A stretch of DNA of 34,071 nt from positions 1 to 34,071 of the IMG/VR virus record IMGVR_UViG_3300018421_000096; one strand, 5' to 3'. The position numbers and the translations under genes are program-made. This stretch comes from a virus. Below, one piece after another: positions 1,861 through 26,600 of this stretch (within the stretch, counting starts at the first letter, position 1; the number at the start of each line of letters is the position of its first letter). The notes under the pieces are model-generated. The model did not search any database. It was not told the DNA's origin and saw only the letters and a program-made list of their open reading frames with translations.

Positions 1861-2280
1861 TTATTCTTTATCATTACTATTTAGAAAACCTTGTTTAAGT
1901 AACTTAGACAAGTCTGAAGTTGAACCAACAAATACAGCATTGTTTGTCACATTATTTGTTGTCTTAACAGTCTCTTCTTCAACGTCCTTAAGTTTTTTCT
2001 GCAGATCAATTAATTTATCTGTGGTATCTGCAACACTTTTAATTAACTGACCTGCAACTTCATAAGCTCTTGGACTTCCACCCTCACCTGCCAATTCCAT
2101 AATTCCATTGATTGCCTCTTGCCCCTTTTCAATCAAAGAATATAAGTTAGCACGAGTGTACTCATAGTCTTTCTTAATATCATTCTTTTCCTCTGGTTTC
2201 TGTATCGCTCCAGGTTTCTCAACCTCAACAATACTACTCTCTACATTGAGGGCTTGGTCAATAGCATCAAAATCTGACAT
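1861..2280 (-). CDS. 16: Small terminase subunit, gp16-like
   Basis: A 139-residue match to the T4 gp16 family (T4 gp16 is 164 residues). This is the small terminase subunit that forms a ring, recognises the phage DNA and stimulates the large subunit gp17 during packaging. The alignable core is a helical segment (DYEYTRANLYSLIEKGQEAI, then SPRAYEVAGQLI, then TDKLIDLQKKLKDVEE), corresponding to the SPRHMEV and LKLHKDMKD segments of T4. A C-terminal NNAVFVGSTSDLSKLL corresponds to T4 NATVFMGSPTELMDEI. The acidic N-terminus (residues 1-35) is variable. It follows gp15 by six bases, the same order as in T4. Confidence 0.9.
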   Translation of the reverse strand: MSDFDAIDQALNVESSIVEVEKPGAIQKPEEKNDIKKDYEYTRANLYSLIEKGQEAINGIMELAGEGGSPRAYEVAGQLIKSVADTTDKLIDLQKKLKDVEEETVKTTNNVTNNAVFVGSTSDLSKLLKQGFLNSNDKE

Positions 2281-2286
2281 AAGTTA

Positions 2287-3333
2287 TTAAATATCAATTT
2301 GGCGTGTTGGACTATAGTCTTTTCCGTCACTAAAGTATGTGAAGGACTCATTGAAACCAAAGTCATCATCTGGTTCAATCAGTGCATCATCCGCAGTAGT
2401 TAGCAGATTAATGTTTGCATCTTTAAGATGCTCTACTGCAGTTGTAGATTCATATCCTCTCTGAACATAAAGTTGAGTTCCAGATGGGATAGCTTCAATA
2501 TACATGATTTCATTGTCAATAATAATTCTATTCCCAATGGCGAATCCGGAACTATCAACAACTGGTAGTAAAGTATCTGTTGCTGTAACAGTTGATGTCA
2601 AGTCTCCAGTGTTATCATTATTATAGTCAACCTTTGCTCTTGGAGTAACTACATATCTCATTTCTCTCTTTGCAGTAGTTCTATTGGTTGAAGCATATGT
2701 ATCAACCTGAACTTTCTTAATGAGACCTTCTGGACTATCAGCAATTGGACCAAACAGATAAGTTTTTGCTGTGAATTTTAGTGTGTAAATTAATGCTCTT
2801 CTGCTAGAAAAATCACCCTCATAATCATCTTGGAACGATATATTATTCAATATGATTGGAACGTCTCTCTTTTCTCCAATCGAATCAACTAAATTGATTG
2901 TGAGATTAAATGATGGTTGAAAATATGGCAAAATTTGTTCGATGATTTGCAGGGCATCATCGTTCAATTTGCACATAATAGATAACTCAAATCCAATATT
3001 ATATGGCACTGGCATGTAAACTTTTTTCATTGTTGTGCCAGTTACTGCTTTGAATGTTTGGGTTATACCAGACTTTCTAGTGGCATCATATTCTAAAGAT
3101 GTCATCTCAAATGACATTCTTGGTAAAGTTATTTGTACTGCCTTATTTAAATTTGCCTGCTGATCTAGACGTGCAAGAAACTTTTGCTTTGGTCCATATG
3201 CTAAACTAACTCTTTGATCATTTATGATCTTTCCATCAGCATCTTTATGCTTGATACTAATTTGATTAAAAAGAGTTCCAAAACCAATAATGGTTTTTCT
3301 AATGATCTCGTGGTAAAAGTAAGTTCCTAACAT
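2287..3333 (-). CDS. 15: Tail sheath stabiliser / tail completion protein gp15
   Basis: A 348-residue homologue of T4 gp15 (272 residues), the hexameric terminator that caps the sheath and tube and joins the tail to the neck. The N-terminus (YFYHEIIRKTIIGFGTLFNQ) and the central signature (ELSIMCKLNDDALQIIEQIL followed by PYFQPSFN) match T4 gp15 (ELSIFTRYEDDMFQIVEQIL, PYFQPHFN). SSRRALIYTLKF matches T4 LSRRRIEWSLTF. Roughly residues 215-320 are additional and contain a module IGNRIIIDNEIMYIEAIP...VQRGYESTTAVEH, seen again in two other proteins of this window. The start overlaps the gp14 stop as TAATG. Confidence 0.92.
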   Translation of the reverse strand: MLGTYFYHEIIRKTIIGFGTLFNQISIKHKDADGKIINDQRVSLAYGPKQKFLARLDQQANLNKAVQITLPRMSFEMTSLEYDATRKSGITQTFKAVTGTTMKKVYMPVPYNIGFELSIMCKLNDDALQIIEQILPYFQPSFNLTINLVDSIGEKRDVPIILNNISFQDDYEGDFSSRRALIYTLKFTAKTYLFGPIADSPEGLIKKVQVDTYASTNRTTAKREMRYVVTPRAKVDYNNDNTGDLTSTVTATDTLLPVVDSSGFAIGNRIIIDNEIMYIEAIPSGTQLYVQRGYESTTAVEHLKDANINLLTTADDALIEPDDDFGFNESFTYFSDGKDYSPTRQIDI

Positions 3334-4742
3334 TAATATGTACCAAATGGGTTGGATTCAGTAAAATCTAAGATGAGATCTGAAGAATCCTCTATCTCGT
3401 CGTTTTGTTCATATTTATTATCGGTTGTACTAGCTGTTCCTACAGTCTTAATTGCATACTCTGCAGAAGACTTGCCACCAGTGATAACTTCTCCGGGAGT
3501 AAATCTGCCAGTTACAATACCAACTTTCAATATACTGGTATCAGAATCCCAATTCTTGACTCTGGCAGTAGTACTGGTTGCAGATCCAGTGACAACCTCA
3601 TTAAACCAGAAAGTTCCAACTCCCACTGTCGATGCGGCACCAATTGTGACGGTTGGGGCGGATGCCAAGTATCCAGAACCAGCGTCTACTATTCTAAGAG
3701 CACTGATTGTTCCGGCAGCACTAACAACTGCCTTTGCTGTTGCATTTAGATTTGGTGATAGTGATGCTACGGATATACTAACCGTTGGAACTGTACTATA
3801 ACCAACTCCACCATCAGTAACGGTTAACTTAACAACACCTCTCTTATCTGTAACGATTCCACAAGTTGCTGCAGCACCAGCACCACCGCCACCAGTAATA
3901 GTGATTGTTGGTGCTGCACCGGTATATCCAATACCCGCGTGTGTCAACAATATTTCAGATATTGAAGTTACATTATTTCTGGTGGTAGTAATTGCAACAG
4001 CGGTTGCAGTTGTACCAGTACTTACAGAATTTCCATTTGGATCTGTTGGACCAGAAATAGTTACGATTGGTGTGCTAGTGTATCCAGATCCATCATTATT
4101 TAAGAAAATCTGCCGTATATATCCTTGACCAACTGTTGAAGTCGCTGTAGCGCGAGATGTCGTAGTGAACATTGTAAGATCAATAATATATCCTTGATCT
4201 TCTATTGTCTTATCAATATCTTCTACTGATGTATCAATAACTTCATCTTCATATTCAAAGAGTTCACATTGAAGTTCATAGACATAATTTTTACCCAACT
4301 GGTAAAATGGACTTTCATGTTCTACAAATTTAACTTCAAATAATCTTTGTCCTAGTGGAAAATAAATTAAATCTCCTTCTCTTGGTCTTGATGAGACTGT
4401 AATTTCATCATCATCTTCTCCTTCGAGAAAAACTGCAATAAAATCTTCAAACCTCTCTTTGGATATAACTAAACTAACTTCATCTCTGATGCTTACGCCA
4501 AATTTAGTCATGATGTCGCCAGCACCACTGTAACCATCGTAATTATTAAGGTATGCTTCTATGAGGAAGTTGTCATCAAATTTTGATGATTGCACTTCTT
4601 CAAGGATAGTTTGTTTTCTAACAAACTTTCTTGGTATATAAGTTACCTCAACACCATATATTTTAAGTTGCTCGTTAATAAGATCCTGTATGAGATTTTG
4701 TTCTCCACGAGAACCTTGAAGAAAAAAGGGATTTAGTGCCAT
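3333..4742 (-). CDS. 14: Neck protein gp14 with an inserted glycine-rich repeat region
   Basis: A homologue of T4 gp14, a neck protein that with gp13 completes the head and makes the tail docking site. The first ~190 residues carry the family signal: MALNPFFLQGSRGEQNLIQD, EVTYIPRKFVRKQTILEEV, then DEVSLVISKERFEDF and EGDLIYFPLGQRLFEVKFVE. The extreme C-terminus LILDFTESNPFGTY is also typical. At 469 residues it is far longer than T4 gp14 (256). The extra part, about residues 195-440, contains four Gly-x-Gly-Tyr repeats (see the repeat entry) and a GEVITGGKSSAEYAI segment. It is coupled by one-base TAATG overlaps to gp13 before it and gp15 after it. Confidence 0.92.
   Translation of the reverse strand: MALNPFFLQGSRGEQNLIQDLINEQLKIYGVEVTYIPRKFVRKQTILEEVQSSKFDDNFLIEAYLNNYDGYSGAGDIMTKFGVSIRDEVSLVISKERFEDFIAVFLEGEDDDEITVSSRPREGDLIYFPLGQRLFEVKFVEHESPFYQLGKNYVYELQCELFEYEDEVIDTSVEDIDKTIEDQGYIIDLTMFTTTSRATATSTVGQGYIRQIFLNNDGSGYTSTPIVTISGPTDPNGNSVSTGTTATAVAITTTRNNVTSISEILLTHAGIGYTGAAPTITITGGGGAGAAATCGIVTDKRGVVKLTVTDGGVGYSTVPTVSISVASLSPNLNATAKAVVSAAGTISALRIVDAGSGYLASAPTVTIGAASTVGVGTFWFNEVVTGSATSTTARVKNWDSDTSILKVGIVTGRFTPGEVITGGKSSAEYAIKTVGTASTTDNKYEQNDEIEDSSDLILDFTESNPFGTY
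3660..4115 (-). repeat. Four glycine-rich GxGY beta-repeats inside gp14
   Basis: Within the gp14 coding sequence four degenerate units recur. Their cores are NNDGSGYTSTPIVTI (around 4075-4100), THAGIGYTGAAPTITI (around 3910-3950), TDGGVGYSTVPTVSI (around 3793-3820) and VDAGSGYLASAPTVTI (around 3666-3690). Each is followed by a Gly/Ala-rich stretch ending in A-x-A-x-V. The spacing is about 40-55 residues. The same unit occurs in the gp8, DUF4815 and giant proteins of this window. Confidence 0.8.
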
Positions 4743-5587
4743 TATCCAATAAAGTCGTAAGGTGGAAGTTCATAATCAAGTGCCATTCTTGATTGAAGCT
4801 CTGCTAATTCTTTTTCTGCATCATCGTATAATTGACGCCCGTTGAGTTCAATTCCTCCAGGAAGTTTAACTCCACCAAACTTAATTAAGTTTTGTCCCCA
4901 CTGCCTCTTGATTAAAGAGGTTAAATATTTTTTGAGGAAACTATCATTATAAACACCTGTAAATGTTGTTGGATCTAAAATTCTATAACAATCTATAATT
5001 ATAAAGTCATCTACAGTTTGTGATCCCCAATCTATATCAAGATATAATCTATCCTGCCTTTTATTAAATCTTACTTGCTTATCAGTTGTTAAAAGAAAAT
5101 CAATATCTTCCAAATAAGTTTTGGTCATTGCATATTGTAAGAGTTCAACTGAGTTGAAATAGTACAAATCATTTAAGAACAATTGATATTTGATACTGAA
5201 CATTCCACCTGAAATGGAACTAGTATCAAATTTGAATATCTTTTCTACACCTATGACAGAATCTGGAACTTGAATGAAGTTTGAAGTTTCATAGAAATTG
5301 GATGTGGTAGTTCCATATCCACTAATAGTTGTTGATGTTGCACTTGTTGTAACAATCCCAACACCTGTGGTATTCTTCGCCTGTCCTCTGTTTATATCTT
5401 CTTGAGTAATCTTATACTTCAAATACATTCTTTCAACACCATCAAAGTGTCTTTCTTGAAAGTATTGTAAAGCATCATCAACCAAATCATCGATTTGGTC
5501 ATCATCGACGTTAATTTCTAATACTGGTGCACCCAAACGCCTCAAACAATAATCAATCAATTGTTGGCGTGTTGCTGGTTTTGCCAT
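4742..5587 (-). CDS. 13: Neck protein gp13
   Basis: A 281-residue homologue of T4 gp13 (309 residues), the head-completion neck protein that acts with gp14 after DNA packaging. The recognisable N-terminal block at residues 8-45 reads QLIDYCLRRLGAPVLEINVD followed by DDQIDDLVDDALQYF. Later conserved parts are IQVPDSVIGVEKIFKF, a beta-rich DRLYLDIDWG, and a C-terminal helical block, KKYLTSLIKRQWGQNLIKFG then LPGGIELNGRQLYDDAEKEL. The start ATG overlaps the stop of the upstream coiled-coil gene (TAATG) and its own stop overlaps the gp14 start, so gp13-14-15 look translationally coupled. Confidence 0.93.
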   Translation of the reverse strand: MAKPATRQQLIDYCLRRLGAPVLEINVDDDQIDDLVDDALQYFQERHFDGVERMYLKYKITQEDINRGQAKNTTGVGIVTTSATSTTISGYGTTTSNFYETSNFIQVPDSVIGVEKIFKFDTSSISGGMFSIKYQLFLNDLYYFNSVELLQYAMTKTYLEDIDFLLTTDKQVRFNKRQDRLYLDIDWGSQTVDDFIIIDCYRILDPTTFTGVYNDSFLKKYLTSLIKRQWGQNLIKFGGVKLPGGIELNGRQLYDDAEKELAELQSRMALDYELPPYDFIG

Positions 5588-5808
5588 TAGAATCCCTCAG
5601 CGTCTATAACAGTCTTTGGTTGTGTTTTTTTACTTTTTGTTTTTAAACTTTCCACCTCTTTTTTTAGTTCAACTACTTCTCTAGATTGCTCTTCAAATCT
5701 TTGGTTTAGAACCATCAACTTCGCTTCAAAAGCTACAACCTGAGAAAGTAAATCTGCCGATTTTTGCTGATAAACTAAAATTAAAGACCTATAATCAGTT
5801 TCATTCAT
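5587..5808 (-). CDS. Small coiled-coil protein upstream of gp13
   Basis: A 73-residue protein starting MNETDYRSLILVYQQKSADL. Nearly the whole sequence is predicted helix with heptad-like spacing (LLSQVVAFEAKLMVLNQRFE, then VVELKKEVESLKTK), ending in a Lys/Gln tail and DAEGF. I placed the start at the ATG at 5808 rather than the in-frame TTG at 5820, because the TTG falls in the T-tract of the terminator. It is the first gene behind the late promoter at 5845-5852 and is coupled to gp13. I do not recognise a T4 counterpart. A small virion-assembly or fibritin-like role is only a positional guess. Confidence 0.8.
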   Translation of the reverse strand: MNETDYRSLILVYQQKSADLLSQVVAFEAKLMVLNQRFEEQSREVVELKKEVESLKTKSKKTQPKTVIDAEGF

Positions 5809-5818
5809 AATTGCATAC

Positions 5819-5843
5819 AAAAAAAGGTGGGATTATCCCACCT
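5819..5843 (-). terminator. Factor-independent terminator after the fibre gene
   Basis: On the minus strand AGGTGGGA-TAA-TCCCACCT forms an 8-bp stem with a 3-base loop. Its 3' end runs into a T-tract of seven (5825-5819). It lies 25 bases beyond the stop of the fibre-like gene. Confidence 0.88.
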
Positions 5844-5844
5844 G

Positions 5845-5852
5845 TATTTATA
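5845..5852 (-). promoter_or_regulatory. T4-type late promoter TATAAATA
   Basis: A perfect TATAAATA lies between the stop of the fibre gene and the terminator hairpin, upstream of the coiled-coil/gp13-gp16 operon. With T4 late spacing, transcription would start near 5839, inside the 5' arm of the terminator stem. Confidence 0.75.
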
Positions 5853-8559: not shown

Positions 8560-8567
8560 TATTTATA
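8560..8567 (-). promoter_or_regulatory. T4-type late promoter TATAAATA
   Basis: A perfect TATAAATA upstream of the BppU-like gene (ATG at 8539). It overlaps the stop codon of the preceding 59-residue gene. Confidence 0.75.
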
Positions 8568-8928: not shown

Positions 8929-11900
8929 TTATGCAAGAGCGATGACTCTGAGATCCTTAAACTTGGGTGAGCGTGCCTCATTAGTTCCACTCATTACAAT
9001 CTTAATTCTGAATCCATTAAACTGTTCCAGATTATCAATACTAAACTGATATTCGGAGAATTGTCCATCAGCACTAGGAACAACATAAGCATCTGCTCTA
9101 CCGCTATTTCTGGTACTATCAATTATAGTGTCACCGAAACCATCATTATTAGTATCTCTCAAGTTATCGTATCCAGGGAATAGTTCAAATGCTTGTTCAA
9201 CTTCATTTGAGTCTGTCCTATAGAGTTGATAGAGAACTCTAAAGTCTGCAGATGAATGCCTATATGATCCAACCAATACTTTAAGTGACGTTGCTGGTTG
9301 TTTGAGTGAGACTTTGTTAGTCACATAAACTGATGTGTGTGGATCTTCAGAATTGAGATTTACACGACCATCAAAGGCATAGTCGGAAACTGGATTATTC
9401 AAACGATTTCTGCCATAAATCATTGTGATGTTGGCAGTATCGATAACTGGTGAAAGGTTTGAATCATTGGAATTCATTGTAATTCCAAGAGTGAATGATC
9501 TATTCTTTGGAAGATTTGTCAATCTATTAGTTTCATTTACTTCAGATGCAACAATTCTTGTAGATGAAAGATCATTTTGCTCATTGATCTCAATTGATTC
9601 AAATCCTTGATCAATAAATGATACCTCAGATCCACCAGCACTTGTTCCAGAAACTGTTCTGATTTGTGCTGAAACATTTGTTCCATCTCCAGGAGTTATA
9701 AAATTAACTCTTGGGAGAAGAGTATTGTATTGAATATTCTTTGTGGCGATTACATCTTTTCCACCAACATAATTTTCATCGGTGAAACTGAGTTGTGTAT
9801 TGCCAGTTGCTCTATCTTGACGATCAATTTGAATGTAGTACTTATCAAGATCTTGAGAACTACTCAGTAGAGCATTTGCTGACATATTATGTTGCTTATT
9901 GATCTTAGTAAGTGATACTCCATTCAGTTCATATGGGAAGATCTGCGAATTTGTTGGATGTGATCTAACTAAAGATCCATCAATTCCTCTAGTTCCAATT
10001 CCAAGAGTTCCAGATCCACCACTTCCTGCAGTAATTGAATCATAGTATACAATTTCATTATTGATTTTTGCAAATCCTTTAGAAGTGGTTATACCTTCGA
10101 ATGTTTCGAAGATCGAAGTATTTGCAACAGAAATACTTGCAGATCCAATGGTCAATTCCGCAGACAATGTGGACGGAACGGTATTTGGCTCAATATCTGA
10201 TAAGGTGACAATATTATTTGTCGCGTGCATACCGTGCCCATATTGATTAACCTCAATAACATTTCCTTCATAAAGGGAATTGACAACAGATGAACTTAAA
10301 ATGTCTGTATTTGCAAAGGAAACCGCAGTTGATCCATTATAAACAACAAGATCATCATTGGTAGTAAATTCTTCACCTTGAACATTTGTAAGATACAATG
10401 TGTCTTTACCATCTAAGGTCTTGACCGTTACACGACCATCAGTTCCTTTAGCCACGCTGCTAGTTGTAACTCCAACAACATCACCAATTACGTATCCATT
10501 ACCTTTTGTCGTAATTGAAACTGATGAAAGTTTGTTTGCAGAGACAACTACTGTTCCTCTAGCACCACTTCCAGATCCAGTGATAGTATAAAGTGGAACA
10601 TCTGAGAATGAACCATTGCTGTATCCAGCACCAACATTAGATACTTCTGTAGTTTGTAGTCTTCCACCAACTTGTTCAATGTACCCATATGGTCTTGTAT
10701 CAGTTCCATCGCTTACCTTTCTACCAACTTGTAAGATGGCATCCATAGTTGAAGTTGTGGTAATTCCAACTTTTAACTTTCTAGGTAAAGTCTTGATTGG
10801 GTCGAGGGTTAACTTTGGAAGGTTAGCATCAATGGTTGTTAATGGTGTATTGTAGAAATATGCAGTTCCTTGGGATGTTGCAAAGTTTGCTTTATAAAGT
10901 TTGAACTTGAGATCTTCAAATTGGCTTGCTGTCCAGATTGTGCCGTTTTGCGACTTGAACAAACTTCCACCAACATACTGTTTGGTTACAATTACGCTTT
11001 CAGCATTCGGTAAGGTAGTTGTATTTACCGTCTTCTCACCCATTCTAGCAATCCACGCTTCATAGTTGTTTGTGGTTGGTGCAAGAATTACGATTGCATA
11101 TTCTTTAGATGGTTCAAGATAAATTGGAGATGGGAAAGTAACTTTAGTTGCAACAGTTCCATCTGAAGAAGTATTGACCTGTGATGGTTCCAGAGTTACT
11201 CTTGAGAAATCATCGACCAATTGATCGGTAGGAGTACCGAGTTCAACTGTGCGTACTTCAATCGTAACCTTTTCATTCTCATCTTTGTTTGCAAAGAAAA
11301 GATCAACAGCGGTTAAGAACGCACCAGTTTCATCAACAGTGAATGACTGTGCCAGTGGATCTTTTCCACCGCCTCTGTTCTGTGGAGGTGCTGGTGGTGG
11401 TGGGGGTGGTCTTCTTACAATCACCCTCGTTTGCCTAAATGTATCAACAATTCCACTAGTAGTGTAAGTTGTTTCGCCACTACTAATCAGGAGACTTCCA
11501 GGGAGAGGTTGAGCATTTGTGCTGCTAGAAGTGATCTTAAAGGTTCTTGTACCAGTTTCAAAGCGTAATGGTGGCGGAGGGGACGCCAGAGGGTCCCTGA
11601 AGAAGAATGAACCACCAACATCACCAAAAGTATCAGTGACAAGTCTAACGTCGCTTACAACCGCTTGTGCGCCACTGGTTTCACCAACCAGAACCATACC
11701 TTTAGTTACATATCCAAAATATCTACCCTGAACTTCATCGGATAAAGATTCGGAATCAACATTAAGGACAGTGGAAGATGCTGAATATGTAGTTGGTAAT
11801 GTTAAAGATCTATCGTAAGGATTGAGACTAATTGTTGTTGTGGGATTATTGTATGGTCCAGTTTTATGGTTTGGTTGAATCGCTCTTGCTCTGAAGATTC

Positions 11901-14900
11901 TTGTTCCACCACTAGATCTATTACCATTAATAAATCCTTGGACATTTTCACCAACGCTGAACACGCCAGATGACATTGTAATTTCAATAAGTTTTGGTGC
12001 AATATCAATACCACTAGCACTATCAAAGAACTGATAGTGTCTTGCTAATGGTCTTAATCCACCAGCAGTAAATGAAACATTCCTAGATCTAATGTGAGTA
12101 TCTGGTGTTGAAGAAATTTTGATAGTTTCGATGTATGAACCATCAAAGTCTCCAACAATTGATCTTTCACCACCATCAATAAAGACGTTTCTTACCCAGT
12201 TATCGGAAGCAGGTGAAAGTTCAATTCTGCCAGTAAAGTCAATCATATTAAATGGATTGACATTTTCAACTCTTGATGCTAAAGGTTGTTCAATCCAAGT
12301 TTTTTCGGTATACTTGAGAGTAATTAAGTCTCCAGTTTTTTGTACATTTGAGTCAAGAAGTTGCAGATTCTGTGTGAAGTCTGCAGTATCAAGATTAATT
12401 GATGGTTCTAAAGCTACTTGTGGTTTCAGTGAGTAGAAATCAATTGGTGTTGTGAGTTCATTATTTGAACTATCAACATTGACTTCAGAATCATTTTTAT
12501 CTAATCTTCCAACATCTTTAAAGTCATCTACAAAGAACCCAGATTTAAATCTATCAAATCCATCAGCATCTCTAACCTGGAGTGATTTTGTATCGAGTTC
12601 AAGTAATGAGAGAGATGTGAGAGTTTCTAAAGTTTCTACACGATCTTCAATCTTTCCAATGTCACGCATTGTATATCTTCTATTATCAGTAATAGTGATC
12701 TTTGCGTCTTTTACATTGTAGAGATATGCTGGTAACTCAATTGTTGCAATTTCCATTGCACTATCAACATTTGACGGTGCTTTTGGATTTACTGCAGATA
12801 CGCCTTTTGTTACACTAAAGTTTCCTTCTTTATCAAGAGAAACTTTATCTATTCTTGGCAGGTAATGCGAATAATCTACAACAGATCCTTCTAAAGGTGC
12901 AACAACCAATGTTGGATTAGTTCCTGCTGTTGCAAAAGTTCTGCTAGAGAAAGCAAATGGTGAAGAAGTGGTTGATGTAAATTGTGCTACTCTTGGTCTA
13001 AAATCGAGAACATTAGATACTCTAATTCCACTTGGTAAAACTGGAATATCGTACTTATATCTTTCAGGGTCGTAAGAATTTACAGTGTAGACATCACCGA
13101 GATCATTTGATGGGACACGGTAATAATCAAAAACAACTAAGAGGCGACGAGATGGGATATATCCATCATTTTTTCTAACTATCCTAGAGTAGTCATAATA
13201 TTGTTCTCTTTGTGCTGTGTCTAATCTATAATGTGAGGTAACATTTTGATAGTTGCCTTTGTTGATTGTTGCAATAGCTGACTGAATATTTGACTCTTGG
13301 AAAGTGACTGTCTCCCCAACAGCAAACTCTGCGTCATTTAATCTTACAATTTCAACTTTTGTAGCAGAAGATCTAGTTACAACTTGTGCTAAAGCTCCAC
13401 TATCTTTTCCTAAGATTTTCTCACCTAAGATGGAATTTGTATCCAAGGAAAGACCTGAAGGGAACTCTAAAGAATCTAAAACTGGTGCGGATGTGTTCAG
13501 GGATTCAAATACACCAATCAATTTAACAACATCTGGCAAATTCAAACATATTTCTCTATCTTCAATTCTAGTTCCATAAAATGGACTTGTTGACAGTCCA
13601 GCAAGTGATGTTGAAATTCCTGAGGATGTATTTGTTATATTAACTTTTTCACTTCTAACATATTCTTTTTGCTTTTCCTTTATTCCAATCTTTTTAAGAG
13701 TGGTATTTACAGTAACATCGCTTGTTTGTGATGCAAGCAATCCTTGAATTGTAACGCTTCCATCAGTTGCCAATGTAAATTGATCTGAAGTCAGTTGCTC
13801 ATATCCATTGGATCCGGAATAGACAATAGAATATCTGTCAGCATCAAAAGTTTCATATCTGGAACTTGTAATACCAGTTTCACTTGGAGTTAGAGTTAAC
13901 TGTCCAGAAGAGTTTGTACTTTTTTCTCTTATCTGCTTTACAACTGTCAGATTTGATCCTGACAACCCAACGGAAGAAATATTATCCTCTTCCAGATGTG
14001 CATACAAACCACCTTTTTCCTGTACAACAGGAACACCAATGCTAAAGTTTACTGTTTGTGTTGATGATGGTAAATTTCCATCACATACATTAGAAACGTC
14101 TGTAGCAGCTTCCAATGTCAATACTAGTCCATCAGAAGAAACACTCTGAACCCTATTGAATGTTTCTACAGAAAGATCACTAGTTTGATATCTAATGATT
14201 GCATCACTCTTAATTCCAACAAAATTCTTTCCAGGAACTGTAGCAATACCTGCAGTACTAATTGTAATAGTATCAGTTATGCTGAAATTAGTTGCAGTTT
14301 TCTTTTGTAAAACAAGGTCTGCAGAGAAATCTACTTTTAGTTCTCCACCACTAACAGTTCCGGTCGAATCTTGATAAACTGATTTTACATCTTGAATACC
14401 GAATGTTTTTACAGTTTTAACTGATCTTGAAACCTCAGTAGTTCCATTGATTCTTAACTGCTCACCAGCAATAAAAGTTCCTGACGTTTGAGTCAGCATA
14501 ATTGTTGCGCTGGATGCTGCAGTGACAACAAATCCAGATGCTCCGCTACTTACACCTTCAACAAAAGATGTTGCTGGACATTGTGTTGAGTTGAGATCTT
14601 CATTAACAACAATTTCAGTATATGTTTGAACATCAAACAAATACAAATCAAATTCCGATGCATTATTTGAGTATGGTGCATCACTTAAGTTATATGCATA
14701 TATTCTTGCTTCACCAATTTTTGTGCTATTTGTAGGTATAGCAGTTGCAAATTGTGTTGTTTTTCTTCTGTTGTGAAGTTCTACAGTATTACTATTATTA
14801 TTAATCCCTATAAAAGGAAGACCCGCCGCAAAATTAACTTTGAATAGAGTTCCGAACTCAAAAGGTACTAATGCATTGGTGACTGTTCTAGTATCTCTTG

Positions 14901-16035
14901 GTTTCTCTACATCTAATACTGTGGTTGATACAGTTTCAATATCAAATCCTCTAACGTATGCTTTTCCTGGTGAAACTTTTACAGCAAGTAAATCTTCTGA
15001 TGGGGTATTGAGTTGATCTGTTACCTGCCCATCAAAGTAAACGCCATCATTGGATAATCTATCATTTAAAGATTCTGCTATTTGGACACCAAAATTTCCT
15101 AAGGAATAATCGCCAGATTCTTCATAGGTTCTTTTAGCAAAATAGTCTCTAATTATACTGTATACTGAAGTATTTTGAAGTTTCTTAATTTCTCCGTTTT
15201 CAATCCTAATTAACTCGACAAAATTTTTGTCGTCAAAATCTGTTAATAATTTTTTAGTAAGAGTTGTGGATATTTTTAATCTATCTGCACCTGGAGCAGC
15301 ATAGTTTGAAAATCCTTTAGCATTATCGTATAATGCAGAATCATCCTTAGCAGTTATAATTTCTTCAGATATGCTAAGACCAACTCTATATGATGGTGTG
15401 TTGCTATATGGATCAAGAATTACCTTGTCTTCGCTAACATCTACAAAGGTTCCTCTGATAAAATATACACCATTACCAATAGATACGTTACTTCCTATTG
15501 CAGAAGAATTTTCTGAAACTACAGAAGCTACAGTATCTCCAGCATTGATATTGGTATTGCCATATGTAAAACTTTCTTCAGTAATTAAAACCTCACCATC
15601 AGAGAAAGTTGCTACTTCTTCAGTAGTTCCTGCTTGGTGATACCTTACAAACAGTGTAAAATCTGTGATCCCTTCTGTTGGTGAGATATTTTCATATTTG
15701 TCAACAGACGCAACTACACCAGAAGACTGACCTCTGAGTCTCTTACCTACAAGTTTATCTGCATAATTAATAATATCTATTCCCAAATGATCTGAATTTA
15801 CTTTAATGCAAGTATATTCACCATCATAATTAATATTTCCAGGGATCACCATAGATCCCTCTTTGAATATATGACTTCCGAAAGACTCGATTTGATTTTG
15901 CAGCATTGACTGCAAAGTCGTCAATTCTCTTGCTTGAACAGGAAATCCTGGTTTAAATAAGACCCTATAAAAATTATCGTCCTTATCAAAATCGTCAAAA
16001 TAAGGGCTTATATTGAGGTTCGTTTTCTGTGGCAT
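8929..16035 (-). CDS. Very large DUF4815-type virion structural protein, 2368 aa
   Basis: The N-terminus (NISPYFDDFDKDDNFYRVLF, KPGFPVQARELTTLQSMLQN, IFKEGSMVIPGNINYD) is the DUF4815 signature of large tail/baseplate proteins of T4-like cyanophages. Around residues 1538-1554 there is a proline run (RRPPPPPPAPPQNR). It is followed by DPLAQSFTVDETGAFLTAVD and VTIEVRTVELGTP, a beta domain with the conserved 'DPLAQSF' start. Later parts carry GxGY repeats (near 10.50 and 10.62 kb) and a NNEIVYYDS...TRGIDGSLVRSHPT module. The C-terminal domain ends FRIKIVMSGTNEARSPKFKD. It sits where T4 has gp9-gp11, so a baseplate-periphery role is likely. It starts three bases after gp8 ends. Confidence 0.88.
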   Translation of the reverse strand: MPQKTNLNISPYFDDFDKDDNFYRVLFKPGFPVQARELTTLQSMLQNQIESFGSHIFKEGSMVIPGNINYDGEYTCIKVNSDHLGIDIINYADKLVGKRLRGQSSGVVASVDKYENISPTEGITDFTLFVRYHQAGTTEEVATFSDGEVLITEESFTYGNTNINAGDTVASVVSENSSAIGSNVSIGNGVYFIRGTFVDVSEDKVILDPYSNTPSYRVGLSISEEIITAKDDSALYDNAKGFSNYAAPGADRLKISTTLTKKLLTDFDDKNFVELIRIENGEIKKLQNTSVYSIIRDYFAKRTYEESGDYSLGNFGVQIAESLNDRLSNDGVYFDGQVTDQLNTPSEDLLAVKVSPGKAYVRGFDIETVSTTVLDVEKPRDTRTVTNALVPFEFGTLFKVNFAAGLPFIGINNNSNTVELHNRRKTTQFATAIPTNSTKIGEARIYAYNLSDAPYSNNASEFDLYLFDVQTYTEIVVNEDLNSTQCPATSFVEGVSSGASGFVVTAASSATIMLTQTSGTFIAGEQLRINGTTEVSRSVKTVKTFGIQDVKSVYQDSTGTVSGGELKVDFSADLVLQKKTATNFSITDTITISTAGIATVPGKNFVGIKSDAIIRYQTSDLSVETFNRVQSVSSDGLVLTLEAATDVSNVCDGNLPSSTQTVNFSIGVPVVQEKGGLYAHLEEDNISSVGLSGSNLTVVKQIREKSTNSSGQLTLTPSETGITSSRYETFDADRYSIVYSGSNGYEQLTSDQFTLATDGSVTIQGLLASQTSDVTVNTTLKKIGIKEKQKEYVRSEKVNITNTSSGISTSLAGLSTSPFYGTRIEDREICLNLPDVVKLIGVFESLNTSAPVLDSLEFPSGLSLDTNSILGEKILGKDSGALAQVVTRSSATKVEIVRLNDAEFAVGETVTFQESNIQSAIATINKGNYQNVTSHYRLDTAQREQYYDYSRIVRKNDGYIPSRRLLVVFDYYRVPSNDLGDVYTVNSYDPERYKYDIPVLPSGIRVSNVLDFRPRVAQFTSTTSSPFAFSSRTFATAGTNPTLVVAPLEGSVVDYSHYLPRIDKVSLDKEGNFSVTKGVSAVNPKAPSNVDSAMEIATIELPAYLYNVKDAKITITDNRRYTMRDIGKIEDRVETLETLTSLSLLELDTKSLQVRDADGFDRFKSGFFVDDFKDVGRLDKNDSEVNVDSSNNELTTPIDFYSLKPQVALEPSINLDTADFTQNLQLLDSNVQKTGDLITLKYTEKTWIEQPLASRVENVNPFNMIDFTGRIELSPASDNWVRNVFIDGGERSIVGDFDGSYIETIKISSTPDTHIRSRNVSFTAGGLRPLARHYQFFDSASGIDIAPKLIEITMSSGVFSVGENVQGFINGNRSSGGTRIFRARAIQPNHKTGPYNNPTTTISLNPYDRSLTLPTTYSASSTVLNVDSESLSDEVQGRYFGYVTKGMVLVGETSGAQAVVSDVRLVTDTFGDVGGSFFFRDPLASPPPPLRFETGTRTFKITSSSTNAQPLPGSLLISSGETTYTTSGIVDTFRQTRVIVRRPPPPPPAPPQNRGGGKDPLAQSFTVDETGAFLTAVDLFFANKDENEKVTIEVRTVELGTPTDQLVDDFSRVTLEPSQVNTSSDGTVATKVTFPSPIYLEPSKEYAIVILAPTTNNYEAWIARMGEKTVNTTTLPNAESVIVTKQYVGGSLFKSQNGTIWTASQFEDLKFKLYKANFATSQGTAYFYNTPLTTIDANLPKLTLDPIKTLPRKLKVGITTTSTMDAILQVGRKVSDGTDTRPYGYIEQVGGRLQTTEVSNVGAGYSNGSFSDVPLYTITGSGSGARGTVVVSANKLSSVSITTKGNGYVIGDVVGVTTSSVAKGTDGRVTVKTLDGKDTLYLTNVQGEEFTTNDDLVVYNGSTAVSFANTDILSSSVVNSLYEGNVIEVNQYGHGMHATNNIVTLSDIEPNTVPSTLSAELTIGSASISVANTSIFETFEGITTSKGFAKINNEIVYYDSITAGSGGSGTLGIGTRGIDGSLVRSHPTNSQIFPYELNGVSLTKINKQHNMSANALLSSSQDLDKYYIQIDRQDRATGNTQLSFTDENYVGGKDVIATKNIQYNTLLPRVNFITPGDGTNVSAQIRTVSGTSAGGSEVSFIDQGFESIEINEQNDLSSTRIVASEVNETNRLTNLPKNRSFTLGITMNSNDSNLSPVIDTANITMIYGRNRLNNPVSDYAFDGRVNLNSEDPHTSVYVTNKVSLKQPATSLKVLVGSYRHSSADFRVLYQLYRTDSNEVEQAFELFPGYDNLRDTNNDGFGDTIIDSTRNSGRADAYVVPSADGQFSEYQFSIDNLEQFNGFRIKIVMSGTNEARSPKFKDLRVIALA

Positions 16036-17614: not shown

Positions 17615-20600
17615 TTATCCTAGATCGTTTCTGAGAGCACCTGTGTCTCTATGACCAAATGTTCTTCTTTGAATTGTTGGATAAGTGCTAAGTCCTGAGA
17701 AAGTCAATCCAGTTACACCAATTGATATTGGTGAAGAAGATCTTGAAATTCCAGCAAGACGACCCCAAGAGAATCTACCACAAGTAACAAATCCTGTTGC
17801 AGATATTTCTGATGTGGTTGTTGTTGAAAGAATGTCAGCGACAAACTCAGCATTCGCCGCTGCAGATGAGAATGATCTAACTATGTAAACATTATCTGCA
17901 AATGTTGTTCCAACACCAACTATAGCGGCATCTTGAGCATTATTGATTGAAGTTACACCAGAACCAACTATTGTATCTACAATCAAAATTGGATATCCAT
18001 TGTTAAGGTCGGTATATTGTGATGAAGATGAAGCATTCAAGAAGAACTTAAGACCCAGAGTTCCATTTCCACCACTACCTGTTGTTGTAGTAATTCCAGT
18101 AACAATTCCACTTCCACCCTGAACAATATCAATTGAGGTTACATTTTCATAAGAAATATTTGTTGTTGGTGCCAATACTTTAGGAGCATTTGTATGCGTA
18201 TATCCAAATCCAGGATTTGTAATATTTGCAGTTCCGCTTAAAGATCCATTAGATACTGGAATTGTTGCAGAAGCTGTAGTTCCAATGCCAACTCCAATTA
18301 TTTTTGGTGCTGCGATAGAAACTGTAATTGCACTACCCACATATCCAGATCCACCATTACTGATGGTCAGAGCACTAATGGTTCCAGCAGCAGATACGGT
18401 AGCAGTTATTGCTGCAGAAACTGGATCACTAGATCCTTGATTTATGATTAGTGCATCTACACTACTAATGACAATTGAAGATTCATTTTCTTCATAGTTG
18501 AAGAATTGGGCATCATCTACAAATATTTCAGTTGATGCATCTGTAACATCTCCAATAATTCTTGCTGTTGGATAAACCAATGATTCAATGGATGGTCTTG
18601 ACTTATAAACATAATCGTTGTTTATAAATCTATCAACTTTCTGTTTGATCCAATTAAATGGTCTTGCGGTGTTTTCACTAATTCCAATACCAGTATACAA
18701 ATTAGTTTCAAGTAAATCCGAAGTAACAATACCAACAACTGTTCTTGGCTGTTGTGAATTTACACCACCATGTTTGATGAGTTGAATCTCATCACCTTCT
18801 TTGATAGTCTCAATAACTTCTACTGAGAAACTATCAGTTCCACGTGTACCTCTATAGAAGAAGATTGAAACTTTATCTTCTGGTCTTGGTGCTTCACTAA
18901 ACTCAAATGATGTTCCACCCGAGAAATTATAATGTGATCCAGGTTCCTGAACAACTCCGTTTATGAAGATTAAGAGAACAGCATTTAAATCTATGTCTGG
19001 ATCTCCATCCCCAACTTCGAAACTTAAAAGTTCACCCTGATAATACAGTGGGAATCTAGTTCTAACTCCATTTTGTAAAGTTGTAACTGGATCGATGAAA
19101 TCGAGTTCACCAAAAGTCCATGAAGAGAATGAATCTGAGAAAGTATCAAGAACTTCAAGTTCAAAATCTGCAAGTGGTGAAGCAAGACCTTTTGCTGTAA
19201 CTAGTCCAACTGGTTTAAATTTATCTCCAGGTTTGAATCCATAACCAGGTCTAGAAATCCTAAAGGATGATACTTCAAATAAAGTGGATCCAATACCAGT
19301 TGTTGATACTGCACCAACATCTACTGTTAAGAGTAATCCCTCACCAGTATCTGTAGTAGGTCCTATTCCACGACGCGATACTCCAACAATTGGAAGATTC
19401 TCATATGATGGTGCTGGAATACTAATGATTGGGTCTGTATATCCAGATCCACCAGAATTAACTGTAAAGATCAAAGTTCCACCAACACCAACTGTTGCGG
19501 ATACATCAGCACCACTTCCAGGCGATGCTCCATATTCGGTAACAGCAATCGATACAGAACCTCTATATCCAGATCCGTGAATATCTGTAGATCCTAAACC
19601 AACAGATTGAATGACTCCACCCGATACAACTACAGTTACTGCAGCGCCAACTAAAGGTGCAAATCCAAGACCTGGTGTTGATCCAAGAGAAACAATAACT
19701 CCACCTCTTGGTAATTGATTTTTGTTTACATCCTCAGGTGAAAGTACTAACTGACCATTCGACGATGTGATTCCAGTGAATACAACACTTGAAACTCCAA
19801 CAGAACCTTCTTCGAAGTTGTAGTTATTTCCAACGTTATTTGATGTTATTGGGGTTTGGAATATATCATTAATAAACAGAACTCCACTTCCAGTTTCAAT
19901 CCCAGTTGTATTAGCACCACCAACAGTTACTGTATAGGTTTTTCCTATACCAGTAAATGATTTTGAAATACTGTCAAATACTTGGTTTGTAGCATAATCT
20001 TGTCTCAGATAAACTCTTCCACCAAAGGATGATTTTACCTTAGTTAGATTATCTAATCCAATTAATTGTCCAAGATCTCCTCTTGGGGGTTCGGTAAAGT
20101 GAATTTTATTCTTGACAATATTAAAGGATCCAACATAAACCCTAGCATTATCACCATCACTATGACTTGTTGCAGAAGATCCAACAAATCCTCTTTCAAC
20201 TTTAACCAGGTTGAAACTACCAGTACCACTAATTGGACCTACAGCAGTTGTTCCAATACCAACACCCTCGACTTTGACATATTCATCATTAACTTTCATT
20301 ATATCTCCAGGAAGAATGGAGGAAATACCAGTCAGTGAGAAGAATGTAGATCCTACCGATATCGTTCCACCATTGTCAGTTAAATCGTAATTAATTGGTG
20401 TGAATGCAATTGGACTTTGTACAACACCATTGATAGAAATAAGAGACTTGCTAAGTTTCTTATACATTTCAAGTGTATGTGCATTTCCACCACCAGCATC
20501 AGTGAACGTTACTGCAGTGCCAGCATTTGCATTTGCTTCACTGGTTGCTAGTTTGAATTGATTTGAATTTACACGTATCGCATATACTTCCGTAGACAAT

Positions 20601-23600
20601 CCAACGGAAGATCCTGCAATATTCATTACAGTCCCAGCAACTCCAGTAAATGTCGAGCCAGCATCATAGATCAATCTTTCTCCAGTATTGAAGAAGTGGT
20701 CGTCAATTGTAAATATTCCTGTTCCCTGATCAAGAACGGATGAAGATGCAGGATTGAATGTTTTGGCAAAAACTGGGATGGTATCGTGTGTTAAATCAAA
20801 TGCTGTTTTATTGCTTCTATCTCCATTTCTAGAATTATATGCAGAAACAATTAGTTCTTCATTTACTGGACCATATGTCAAGATGTCGGCAACATTATTC
20901 AAATCACTTTCTGATTGAATAATCTCACTGTATGTTTGAACAACAATTGATTGGTCGCTAGAGATTTCAGGATCTGGATAGAATTTCAATATAAAATCTG
21001 ATCCTGATAACTCTGATCCAAAAGTACCAATTCCACTTGTACTTCCAATAGACAAGAATGGATACTGCATTGTGTATGCGGATGTATCATCATGTGTTAC
21101 AAGTAACTGGTGGAGTGCAGTAGTGTTTCCATAACTTACTCGTGCAACAGACTTAATTGTTGTTACATCAGTCTTAGAAACACTAATTGGGGTAGAAATT
21201 CCTGTAGTTGTTTCAAAATTAGTCTGAAGTCTTGCTGAATTTTCTGTTCCTTCTGGTTGTGAACCAGAAAGGAATCTATATGTCCCAACACCAACAGATG
21301 TTGTGCCAAATCCAACTGCTATAGTTCTAACTAACACTGCATCCGACTCAGTGCTGTTAGTATAATCTAATGTAATAACACCAGAATTAATACTTCCTTT
21401 AAAGGTTCCTATAAAATTATCGGACAATTGTGTAGATTCATCATTGTCAAAATAATATTCCGATATAAATGTGTCAGATCCATCATGATCTAAGTAAAGT
21501 TCGACGATAGTTCTATCTTTTGAAGTGGTATTGAAAATTTCAACATTGGCAAAAATACCTTCAGTTTTATCAACTTCTCTAGAAACCAGAGAAACAGTTG
21601 TGCCAACTCCAACAGTAGTTGTTACTCCAACAAGATCAACAAATCCAATTGTTCTAGTATTAATTCCAGTTAGGGTGGTGTTGAATTGATTTTTCAATAT
21701 TTTGATATCATAATCAGTATTAAAAGACTCTAGTGGCACAAATCTCAATGCAAGGTCGTTTGTATTTGCATCAACATCCCCCAACTTTAAAGTAGTATCA
21801 ACAGTATTATTACTTGTTCTTCCACTAGTAATAGATGCTTTTTCTACAGTTAGTAAATTATTATTCTGTGATGGAACAGTAATAACTTCCAACACTTGAG
21901 TTTCTAATCCATCAGTGCTCTTAATTTGGATAAGATATCTACCATATCCATCAGTGATAGAAATGGAATCGAGATCTACATATAAATCGGTTTCACCATC
22001 ATTGTTTGAGAATAAATCTTTGATGTCATCTAAAATTAAAACTCTATTTGTGGAGCATTTGATATAATCTGCTAATTTTTTATTTTCAAGTTTAACAAAT
22101 TTTGATGATCCATTTTGAGTATCTACATCAAGTCCAAAGTCAAAATATTTTACAACATCAACTCTGTTATCGCTAATAATATCGATAAGTGCAATACTTG
22201 TAGCGGCAGCAGTAGTACCGACTCCTACTCTAGTTGTACTTGTAATTCCAGTATCTGAGAAATTTTTGAGTCCTGAAGTATGTAAAAGTCTATTTACAGG
22301 ATCAATCATCTCATCATATGTTATTGGACTCTTGATAGTGTAGGAAAGATTTTGATAATAATCATTATCTGGGGTTACTTGCAAATCAGAGTTTAAGGTT
22401 CCAATATCATTTACCCAACCCCTATTTGTATCAAGAGAATAATTGATGTTGAAGAATCCTTTATTGTTTTCAATAGATTCTACAGTTGCCTCTGTTCCTG
22501 ATTTCTTACCAATTAACTTTTCACCAACAGAGAGTTCATAAGATCCATATACTTTAAGAAGATCATTTCTATTGTCAGTGACTATGAGGTCTCTTTCTAC
22601 ATAATTTGAATTTTCCAATGTTAAAATCTTTTCAGAATCATGGAACTCTAAAGAAGACTGGATAACATCAAATGTGGGATAATTTGACTGCTTAATCAAA
22701 TTGGCATAAGCATTTTGATTGGTGGCTGCAACTCCAGCATTAGTTGCAATGCCGGACATGTCAAATTCAACTGTTGCGGGATTTGTATTTGTATATTTTG
22801 TTATTGGGAAGAATTTATATTGATAATTTGCAGAATTGAAACCATCACCATCCGTTCCAATTTTCTGTATTCCCTCAACAAATACACTATCTCCAACAGC
22901 AAATGGAGCAGTACTGAACCCTAAAATAGGAGTTTGTAGTGTACATGTAACTATTCCAGCTGGAGAAGATACGCAACTTTGAATTCCAACACCATTAGTG
23001 TTGTTTATCGCATATACAACGTTTTCTATTTCATTCAGTCCTTTTGGTGATTCTAAAATATTTACGGCAACAATAGAAGTTCCCTGAAGAACTGCCTCAA
23101 GTGTGCCAGACTCAACAGAAAGTCCAGTAGTTGGATCTACGATTATCAGATCTGGTGCAGAAATATAATTTTGTCCACCAGAAGTTACATTGATTGACGA
23201 TATTGTATTTCTATTACTTAAACGAACATTTGGTGATATGTATGCCTCAGGACTTAATGTCTTATCAGCAGAAAAATCAAATCCTTGATCATCAATAATA
23301 ACTTCTTTAATTTTACCAATCGTCTGTGATTTTGGAACAATATCAGCATTTACACCATCTGTAGATGCAATACTAACAAATTCTGGTAATTTTTTATAGT
23401 TAGATCCACCAGAAGTAATCCTTAGTGAATTTACACCGCCTTTTGCTGTTACTGATGTAGTTGAATATTTTGCCTGGGCAAATTCAGTAGAAGCATAAGA
23501 AAGTTTTTCTGGAACTTCATTCAGTGCTATTTGGAAAGTGGTTGATCCAATACCAGAAATTGAGTAAGTTCCAGTATAAGAACTATCATCAAATAATATC

Positions 23601-26600
23601 TCTGAATAATTTTTTACAGTTGTATCAGAACTACTAATATATCCAGATTTTTCTAAAGTATAATATAGTTTTGCTGGCAATTTGTCGCTGTAGTTTAAGG
23701 TGACAGTTCCAACACCAGTGGTTCCTATACCAATTGTTCCAACGCCAATTACACTTGCTGTTGTAATTGTTCCGCCAACAGAAACTAATTCATTTCTAAA
23801 TTCTCTATCATAGAAGATTTTAAAATTATATCCACTCAATGAAGTATCTGTTACATTGAATACTAAATTATTATTTCTAATAACTGGTATTTGTGGATTA
23901 ACTTTTGATAATTCATGCCCAGCACCACCAGTAGAAGCGAAACTTACGATAGTTGGTGGGATTGAAATAGAATCATTATATGTTTCAGATAACTGAATCT
24001 TATCATCGTCTACTCTATAGACATAATATGATCCTGTTTCAAGACCAGAAATAATCAAATCCGAAGAATTATAGAAAACTTTTTCTCCAGTTTCAAATCC
24101 GTGTGATGTAATTGTTAATTCACTTGTTGCTGTTCCAACAGAAGTTGAAGTGAATCCCACGGGGTTGACTAACAGTTTACCCTCATCTGCATTATATTTT
24201 ACAAAAATACCAGTAGATGTTCCAATCCCAACGGAAAGATTTGGTTTAAGTGTCAGTGAGATTAAATCACCATCACTCAATCCATGATCTGTTGAAACAG
24301 AAACTGTAGATGCAATTTTTTGTACTTTTGCAGTAACCTGATTGAAGGTAGATTCTAATGAATATTTGAAGTCGTCACTATCACCATTTGCAGTAAATGA
24401 TCTAAAGTATAATCCGTTTGTCGTTACTCCAACTTGTGTTGAAAGACCAATGTAATCTCTACCCTTATTAACTACGTATAAAGTCTCAGAAGTTGTAGAT
24501 GGAATATTGAATGTAGTGCTAGTTTCAGTGTTTGAAACTGAAATTTTCGAAGCTCCACTTACTGTTCTCAGTATAACTTGTTGATTTGTCTTAAATGGAT
24601 GATCTGGAAGATATATGCTTTGAGTTGGGACTGATATAATTTTTGCATTCAATCCAACAGTATATACATTAGATATTCCAATTCCAGTGGTAGATCCTAT
24701 ACCGACTTGTTGTTGAGGATTAAAGTATACTTTTTGATTTAAATTTGAATCAAAATCAGTAGTATTAATCTTCAATATCAGATTGTTAGTAACTTCTGTA
24801 ATTTTAGTTGATACTGTGTGTCCAGCACCAGATAGTCCTCTAGCAACTCTTAATACTTTGGTATCTTGGAATACATTTAAAACAGAAAGTCTTTCTGTTC
24901 CTATTGCTACTGTAGATCCAACCGAAATAATTTTAGGAGTATTGGAAACATAGATATCAGTTACAAATCCAGAGACTGAATTGCTGGAAACTGGTCCAGA
25001 TAGATATAAAATTTCAGAAGAAACCCCAACAGTATGTTTGTTCGTCAAACCTTTAATATAAGTTGAAACTCCCGATACAGAAACTTTGTTTCCATCCTGA
25101 ATTGTATGTGGTTCTGTTGTTTGAATTAGTACTTCAGTATCACTAGATCTTAATACTACAGAATCAGAAAATGTTTCAACACTTGTAGATACATTTACAA
25201 TATCTTTTCCAGTAATGGATTGAACATAAGCACCAAGACCACCACCATTAGTATCTGTATTATCAAACGATGCTAGATCATACACCGAATAACCAGATCC
25301 AGGTTCTCTAATATAAAAATCATCAACAGAACCTTTTGTTATTGATTGTACCGTAGCTCTTTGAATGAGAATTTTATTTGGTTCTGAAATAAAATCATTT
25401 GATGAATATGAATCATCAGTTCTATATGGGAAGGTATTTCTTCTTAATTTTGAATCATTAAAGTTGAAAGTTTGATCGACATTTTGGGATACTGGTAATG
25501 ATCTGTACGTATCTCCAACAAAATATGGGAATTGTGGAATTAGTGAACTTGATACTGGATCAGTAGTTATTCCTGCAAAATATGCATAAACTCCATTGGG
25601 AAACTCTGGGGTTTTTGCAAATCTTCCATTATGCTCATCTAAACTTCCAGAATTATCAAACTTATAATCATCAGTAAAGAATCCATCAGAAAATCCAGAT
25701 GGTCTATCAACTACACTAGATGTAGATCTAATATAACCAGATTGTAACTGTACAATAGTTGAATTACTATCAAGTGGATCTAAATGTCCATATGGACCAT
25801 AGATTGGATTTCCATCATGTGCCCATCCAATAATTGGTGAGTGGGATGCTCCATTATCCGAGAAAACAGAATTTCCAATTTCTGTACTATATCCAACAAA
25901 ACTATATTTTAATCCCTGGGAATTTTCAGATACTAGTTCTTGTCCAAATCTACTATAATTGTCTACGGTTAAGTCTCTTACAGATGCTCTAGCATTTGCA
26001 TTTGAACCGACAGATTTTGCGCTGACTGTGGTATTTGATGCTCCGTACCCAACTCCACCATTTAAGACAACTACTGAGCTTACTTTTTGGTTTGAAATAA
26101 CTGCTCTTAGTTTTGCACCAACTCCAGATCCAGAAACAATAAGATCTGGTGCACTAGTATATTCTGAACCGCCGTTTGTAATTTGAACACTTGCTATTTT
26201 TCCATCAATGACGTTTGGTTTTAATTCAACATCTTTTCCAGTTTTGAAGGAAACATTAGGTCTCTTATGGAAGTTAAGAATGGTTGATCCATATCCAGTT
26301 CCAGTTTCATAAAGGTAGAGATCTACAATTTCACCTCTAATCTGTGGAGTTGCAGTTATAACTCCAGTAACACCATCAAATTCTGCATTAATCGTTATAG
26401 TAATATCTTTGTATGCAAAATTTTGATATCCAGATCCAGTTGAAGTTAACTTAACAAATTTTCTTCTACTGTAGTTTTCACTAAATTGGGTGGTTCCTAC
26501 ACCAGGATCACTCAATCTAAACGTATTATCATCAAGTTTTAAAACATAGTGCTCATCTCCACTAGTCAATCCTCCAATTTCAGTTCCATCCGTAGTATAA

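Follow-up and report, generated by a model that had tools for sequence, protein, structure and literature searches.

A probable late promoter overlapping a terminator-like hairpin at a conserved late-gene boundary of T4-like cyanophage-type viruses

Can one short piece of DNA end one transcript and let the next one pass, because the next one begins inside the terminator? This question is raised by a locus in a 34-kb IMG/VR record (IMGVR_UViG_3300018421_000096; the whole stretch of 34,071 nucleotides is called the window here). The window belongs to a T4-like cyanophage-type virus. Its long open reading frames (ORFs) were nearly all found on the minus strand, and its closest named DNA matches were Synechococcus and Prochlorococcus phages, mostly at the neck genes. 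Between a fibre-like gene and the 73-aa ORF that precedes gp13, the minus strand contained an element of about 35 bases, composed of a late promoter box and a hairpin. The positions given in the initial annotation for TATAAATA, for the one base after it and for the hairpin were correct to the base on this strand. C5844 is the sole base that separates the box (T5852-A5845) from the hairpin. The box is an exact copy of the T4-type (gp55-dependent) late promoter box, and the hairpin has the sequence features of an intrinsic (Rho-independent) terminator, with a G-C-rich stem that covaries, a short loop and T6 directly after it. Only two terminator-like sites with at least five G-C pairs and an unbroken T-run on the coding strand were found in the window (5843-5825 and 32213-32197). 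The features of the locus are listed in Table 1.

Table 1. Features at and around the element in the window.
Feature	Position	Strand	Remarks
Fibre-like virion protein gene, 685 aa	5869..7926 (stop 5871-5869)	minus	phrog_697 structural protein, E 4e-11; weak Mtd_N, below cut-off
Next upstream TATAAATA	8560..8567	minus	likely promoter of the transcript expected to end at the hairpin, judged by position only
T4-type late promoter box TATAAATA (-13 to -6)	5845..5852	minus	exact 8-mer match
Terminator-like hairpin AGGTGGGA-TAA-TCCCACCT	5825..5843	minus	8 pairs, 5 of them G-C; loop of 3; -12.9 kcal/mol with tail
Predicted late RNA start, 5839 +/- 1, within the 5' arm	5838..5840	minus	spacing taken from T4
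T-run 3' of the hairpin	5819..5824	minus	six T; seven counting the last stem base
Small ORF, 73 aa, ATG at 5808	5587..5808	minus	conserved small protein, probably coiled-coil; 31-nt leader from 5839
gp13-like head-tail adaptor (neck)	4742..5587	minus	PHROG match
gp14-like head closure (neck)	3333..4742	minus	PHROG match
Tail sheath stabilizer	2287..3333	minus	PHROG match
Terminase small subunit	1861..2280	minus	PHROG match

The small ORF was found to belong to a family of 61-75 aa with the pattern M[ND]E.[DE]Y...YQ[QK]K...Q..ALEA[KR], present in the interval between the fibre gene and gp13 of many uncultured T4-like contigs. The 73-aa ORF had no PHROG match, and tblastn gave no match in the named phages (50,697 phage records); the profile of the family was without any stretch conserved enough for use as a search query. 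In some related contigs devoid of the small ORF, an ORF ending in ..GGEF adjoins gp13 instead. The tail region of the window, also on the minus strand, contained two huge ORFs at 8929-16035 (2368 aa, with a DUF4815 domain) and 17615-29518 (3967 aa).

The conservation of the element was examined in a set of loci collected from IMG/VR with a DNA pattern at the border of the small ORF and gp13, which is blind to the element. This search gave 85 stretches, of which 53 contained the small-ORF family with enough upstream sequence, 22 contained no such ORF, 7 contained another ORF and 3 were cut off. The exact TATAAATA was present in all 53 loci with the small ORF, and the stem followed the box directly in 51 of them. 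The geometry that the initial annotation had proposed to look for in related phages was thus present there. These 53 loci represent one homologous junction and not 53 independent events. Since box and stem were kept in loci chosen without regard to the element, their combination is more than chance. In the 34 distinct contexts obtained from the 53 loci, all eight positions of the box were 100% conserved, and the 30 nt upstream of the box had a mean consensus of 60% and a median pairwise identity of 43%. Thirty distinct elements were found including that of the window, 29 of them with a stem. Among these 29, the spacing between box and stem was 1 nt in 26 and 0 nt in 3, and every one contained at least five T among the eight bases after the stem. 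Two-sided changes were found at pairs 1, 3, 5 and 6 (four of the first seven pairs) and no pairing was broken, on the modest base of six arm combinations from related sequences. The arrangement of promoter and terminator is thus real and conserved at the level of sequence.

A few loci departed from the common form. L400 and L401, at the junction upstream of gp13, kept the box and a sequence like the 5' arm (GGATGGG), without a 3' arm or a T-run. Their start codon follows directly, and this form may be derived or ancestral. In L415 and L425 the stem was kept and the T-run was broken. The late sigma factor gp55 (phrog_234) was encoded in 6 of the 14 element-bearing sister contigs, all of which are fragments (the window itself was outside this search). 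For gp33 (phrog_254) no match was found in 15 contigs, in a search whose control matched nowhere either.

A T4-type late promoter is defined by TATAAATA one helical turn or so ahead of the start, with no -35 element. In T4 the late box spans -13 to -6 (PMC1524935; PMC2988020), and therefore +1 would fall at 5839, inside the 5' arm of the hairpin. The start near 5839 that had been proposed is the one given by T4 spacing, with +1 six nt past the last A, and the predicted RNA begins with GGGAUAAUCCC. The read-through RNA of the 685-aa fibre-like gene would carry the whole hairpin. When folded, this RNA of the window gave an 8-bp hairpin of -12.9 kcal/mol ahead of U6, in line with the claim that the read-through RNA has the complete terminator, the full hairpin keeping its T-run. 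RNA started at 5840, 5839, 5838 and 5837 gave -5.2, -4.8, -1.1 and 0.0 kcal/mol, respectively. The loss of part of the stem from the late RNA is predicted for all 29 distinct elements with a stem, where a T4-spaced start would always take away 4-5 of the 7-9 pairs and leave 3-5. The median folding energy of these elements changed from -12.3 kcal/mol for the full hairpin to -3.6 kcal/mol from +1, and the strongest remnant reached -7.8 kcal/mol; a remnant of this kind could still give pausing. In the same 29 elements the -1 base was always T and the +1 base always a purine (G in 17, A in 12).

The order of promoter and terminator was counted in six phage records totalling 1.16 Mb, of which P-SSM2, Syn9, T4 and S-PM2 were covered in full and S-SKS1 and S-SRM01 partly. 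At 11 of 119 TATAAATA sites a terminator ended 0-12 nt upstream of the box, and at 1 of 119 a stem began 0-8 nt downstream of it; the corresponding counts for the 55 other eight-mers with this composition were 60/9953 before and 55/9953 after. In 80 gp13 loci, 13 of 63 TATAAATA sites had a terminator stem 0-8 nt after the box and none had a terminator before it, against 24 of 7954 sites with such a stem for the other 55 same-composition eight-mers; 11 of these 24 cases were ATAAATAT or TAAATATA, overlapping the same elements. Of the 34 TATAAATA sites in the window and four sister contigs, 5 overlapped a terminator; each contig had a single such site, at the junction of the fibre gene and the small ORF. 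The other sites in these five contigs were mostly free-standing, and many of them had an ATG within about 50 nt downstream (read by eye). The usual order was also present in the window at 32213-32185 on the minus strand, where the strong terminator GGGGGCATCATGCCCC and its T-run are followed by AATAAATA. The window thus contains one pair of each order, terminator first at 32213-32185 and promoter first, overlapped, at 5852-5819.

A wider association was sought in IMG/VR. The first scan, for TATAAATA with GGG..CCC and T5, yielded at least 120 stretches and looked striking. Another pattern, for the box plus the stem, likewise matched at least 120 stretches, the majority at the gp13 junction; this second set was selected for the element and so was not counted as conservation. 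In a matched scan for a GGGG..CCCC T5 stem at offset 0-4, TATAAATA gave 17 of 99 distinct cases and the permuted control TAATAATA gave 31 of 103. A general association of late promoters and terminators across viruses was removed by this permuted 8-mer, which was at least as frequent, and our claim is therefore limited to the junctions examined by homology. Among the named phage records, a general terminator scan covered 6 of 19, two of them in part. A strict pattern ending in CCCNNTTT cannot match the stem of the window, which ends in CCCACCTTT, and its 0/20 says nothing on the element. A pattern of the family found 0 of 19 named records and recovered one of two element-bearing control contigs (L076, with a different spacing, was missed), and a looser pattern found 1 of 19 (P-SSM4) and neither control. 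Both patterns are insensitive, as these controls show. The match in P-SSM4 is probably a coincidence and was not accepted as an example of the element. It lies at the 3' end of psbD (L764, P-SSM4 171300-174300), where the stop codon supplies part of TATAAATA, followed by a terminator, a second TATAAATA and the next gene.

We consider it fairly probable (about 0.7) that the element does two jobs, an intrinsic terminator and a gp55-dependent late promoter sharing bases at a late-gene boundary. The RNA of the fibre gene would include the two arms of the hairpin with U6-7 behind them and would be terminated. The late RNA would begin about six bases past TATAAATA, within the 5' arm, would keep only 3-5 of the 7-9 pairs and so would pass the U-run. 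It would cover the small ORF and the operon of gp13, gp14, sheath stabilizer and terminase, and the purpose may be to insulate this neck and terminase unit from the variable fibre unit. With the terminator downstream of the promoter, it cannot shield the promoter from an incoming polymerase, unlike in the usual order. A polymerase finishing the fibre transcript would stop on the promoter, which may hinder or feed initiation. The start site, the termination at the hairpin and the escape of the late RNA are what we infer from the DNA. The sequence, the geometry, the conservation, the covariation, the folding energies and the presence of gp55 in sister contigs support the interpretation offered in the initial annotation.

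The nearest known system is found in T4, where a late promoter lies inside a hairpin that hides the ribosome binding site at gene e, soc, I-TevI, I-TevII, I-TevIII and segB, and also at mobE of Aeh1 (PMC2988022; PMC3014915). In both systems TATAAATA and the 5' part of the hairpin overlap; in T4 the upstream RNA folds fully and the late RNA is without the 5' part (PMC2988022; PMC3014915), as would be the case here. The placement of the late promoter in a hairpin was seen in the T4 DNA, with the ribosome site in the 3' arm. At T4 spacing, the late start would take away the 5' part of the hairpin in all 29 distinct elements with a stem. The T4 hairpin hides a ribosome site and acts on translation, whereas here a T-run follows, the hairpin is terminator-like and the switch would therefore act on transcription. 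The 3' arm here is CCCACC, and about 16 nt, the T-run among them, separate the stem from the start codon. Because the defining sequestration of a ribosome site was not found, the element is similar to the T4 switch without being a member of it. The logic of a start inside a hairpin is thus known from T4, and its version with a terminator-like hairpin appears to be a new variant.

The pairs of terminator and late promoter in T4 and cultured cyanophages contain the same two parts adjacent at a late-unit boundary; their usual order is hairpin, T-run and TATAAATA, whereas here the promoter precedes the stem and overlaps it. The NATAAATA late promoters of the cyanomyoviruses S-PM2 and Syn9 have the same box (PMC2984593); the words "hairpin", "stem-loop" and "terminator" do not occur in that paper. 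No description of a late promoter overlapping a terminator was found in the literature searched (open-licence PMC papers). If the proposed reading is true, T4-like phages use a start inside a hairpin also to separate transcription units and not only, as known from T4, to control translation. The element would also be a natural part whose DNA should act as a terminator for one polymerase but not for the following one, and with it the minimal stem for termination would become directly testable. It belongs to a group of T4-like marine phages and has been found so far only in uncultured ones, which may explain why it is missing from annotation.

Other readings of the element were weighed. The terminator of the fibre gene and the promoter of the neck genes might simply be packed to save space, without further regulatory effect; the genome is compact, and the two parts are often neighbours in T4-like phages, as the 11 of 119 TATAAATA sites in the six records and the pair at 32213-32185 show. 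We regard this as rather unlikely, since packing would not explain why the order and the 0-1 nt spacing are fixed where the upstream 30 nt share 43% identity. Some escape of the late RNA is needed even with packing, because a complete terminator in the late RNA would stop it. In a bolder reading, the polymerase that ends the fibre transcript would restart in place. When it stops, its active site would stand near +16 to +21 relative to the late start, with the promoter covered. It would then slide back by about 25-30 bp, take gp55 and the sliding clamp and begin again there, so that one polymerase makes both messages as separate RNAs, and the sliding distance would be given by the conserved 0-1 nt spacing. 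A polymerase that has released its RNA can remain on the DNA and start again at a promoter close by, although this was shown for E. coli polymerase with sigma70 in vitro and not for an overlapping promoter (PMC6978380). Such a terminate-and-restart device seems unlikely to us.

The hairpin might also be an element of RNA stability, with termination being incidental. Hairpins at the ends of mRNAs protect them, and here the fibre mRNA might be protected at its 3' end or the neck mRNA at its 5' end; a hairpin of 3-5 bp is left at the very 5' end of the late RNA. This is very unlikely, as the remnant, with a median of -3.6 kcal/mol, is weak and the T-rich stretch past the stem (at least five T of eight in 29/29) is needless for a 5' protector. 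It is still more improbable that TATAAATA is not a promoter but an A-rich flank of the sort common at terminators. The control 8-mer was equally often found beside terminators in IMG/VR, and the box can pair with the region of the U-run in the read-through RNA; against this, the box was invariant (53/53, hairpin 51/53) and was kept in L400 and L401 without a hairpin, gp55 is encoded in sister contigs, and many other TATAAATA sites are followed by an ATG within about 50 nt. A mere A-tract was rejected on the invariance of the box even where the stem is lost. A translational switch as in T4, in which the hairpin of the read-through RNA would mask the ribosome site of the small ORF and the late RNA would expose it, has the merit of an established mechanism with the same promoter placement. 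We give it hardly any probability, since the 3' arm contains no Shine-Dalgarno sequence and the start codon lies beyond the T-run, whereas the ribosome site of T4 sits in the 3' arm; sequestration of a ribosome site by a stem without a Shine-Dalgarno sequence was rejected.

Similar arrangements were found at other junctions. In L100-type contigs, the element was present after a major head gene and ahead of a tail-tube-like gene, with UvsY, a DNA helicase and gp55 further downstream; L100 and others came from the biased pattern of TATAAATA with GGG..CCC and T5. The shortened stems at the head-gene junction keep five pairs. Among the 80 gp32-like loci taken, 4 were duplicates and 1 was cut, which left 75 distinct readable 3' flanks. 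In four of these flanks of gp32-like SSB genes (L667, L669, L674 and L675), TATAAATA lay at the stop codon or one base past it and a stem began 1-2 nt further on; no such box was found in the other 71. In four elements folded from the gp32 and head-gene junctions, the remnant was -5.3 to -8.3 kcal/mol, and since it is stronger there, escape is less clear at these junctions. A small ORF was next after the element of the gp32 junction in the contigs with listed ORFs (L103, L101 and L674). The hairpin sequences of L667, L669, L674 and L675 were found to differ, and in each an early/middle-type gene ends where the late promoter box begins.
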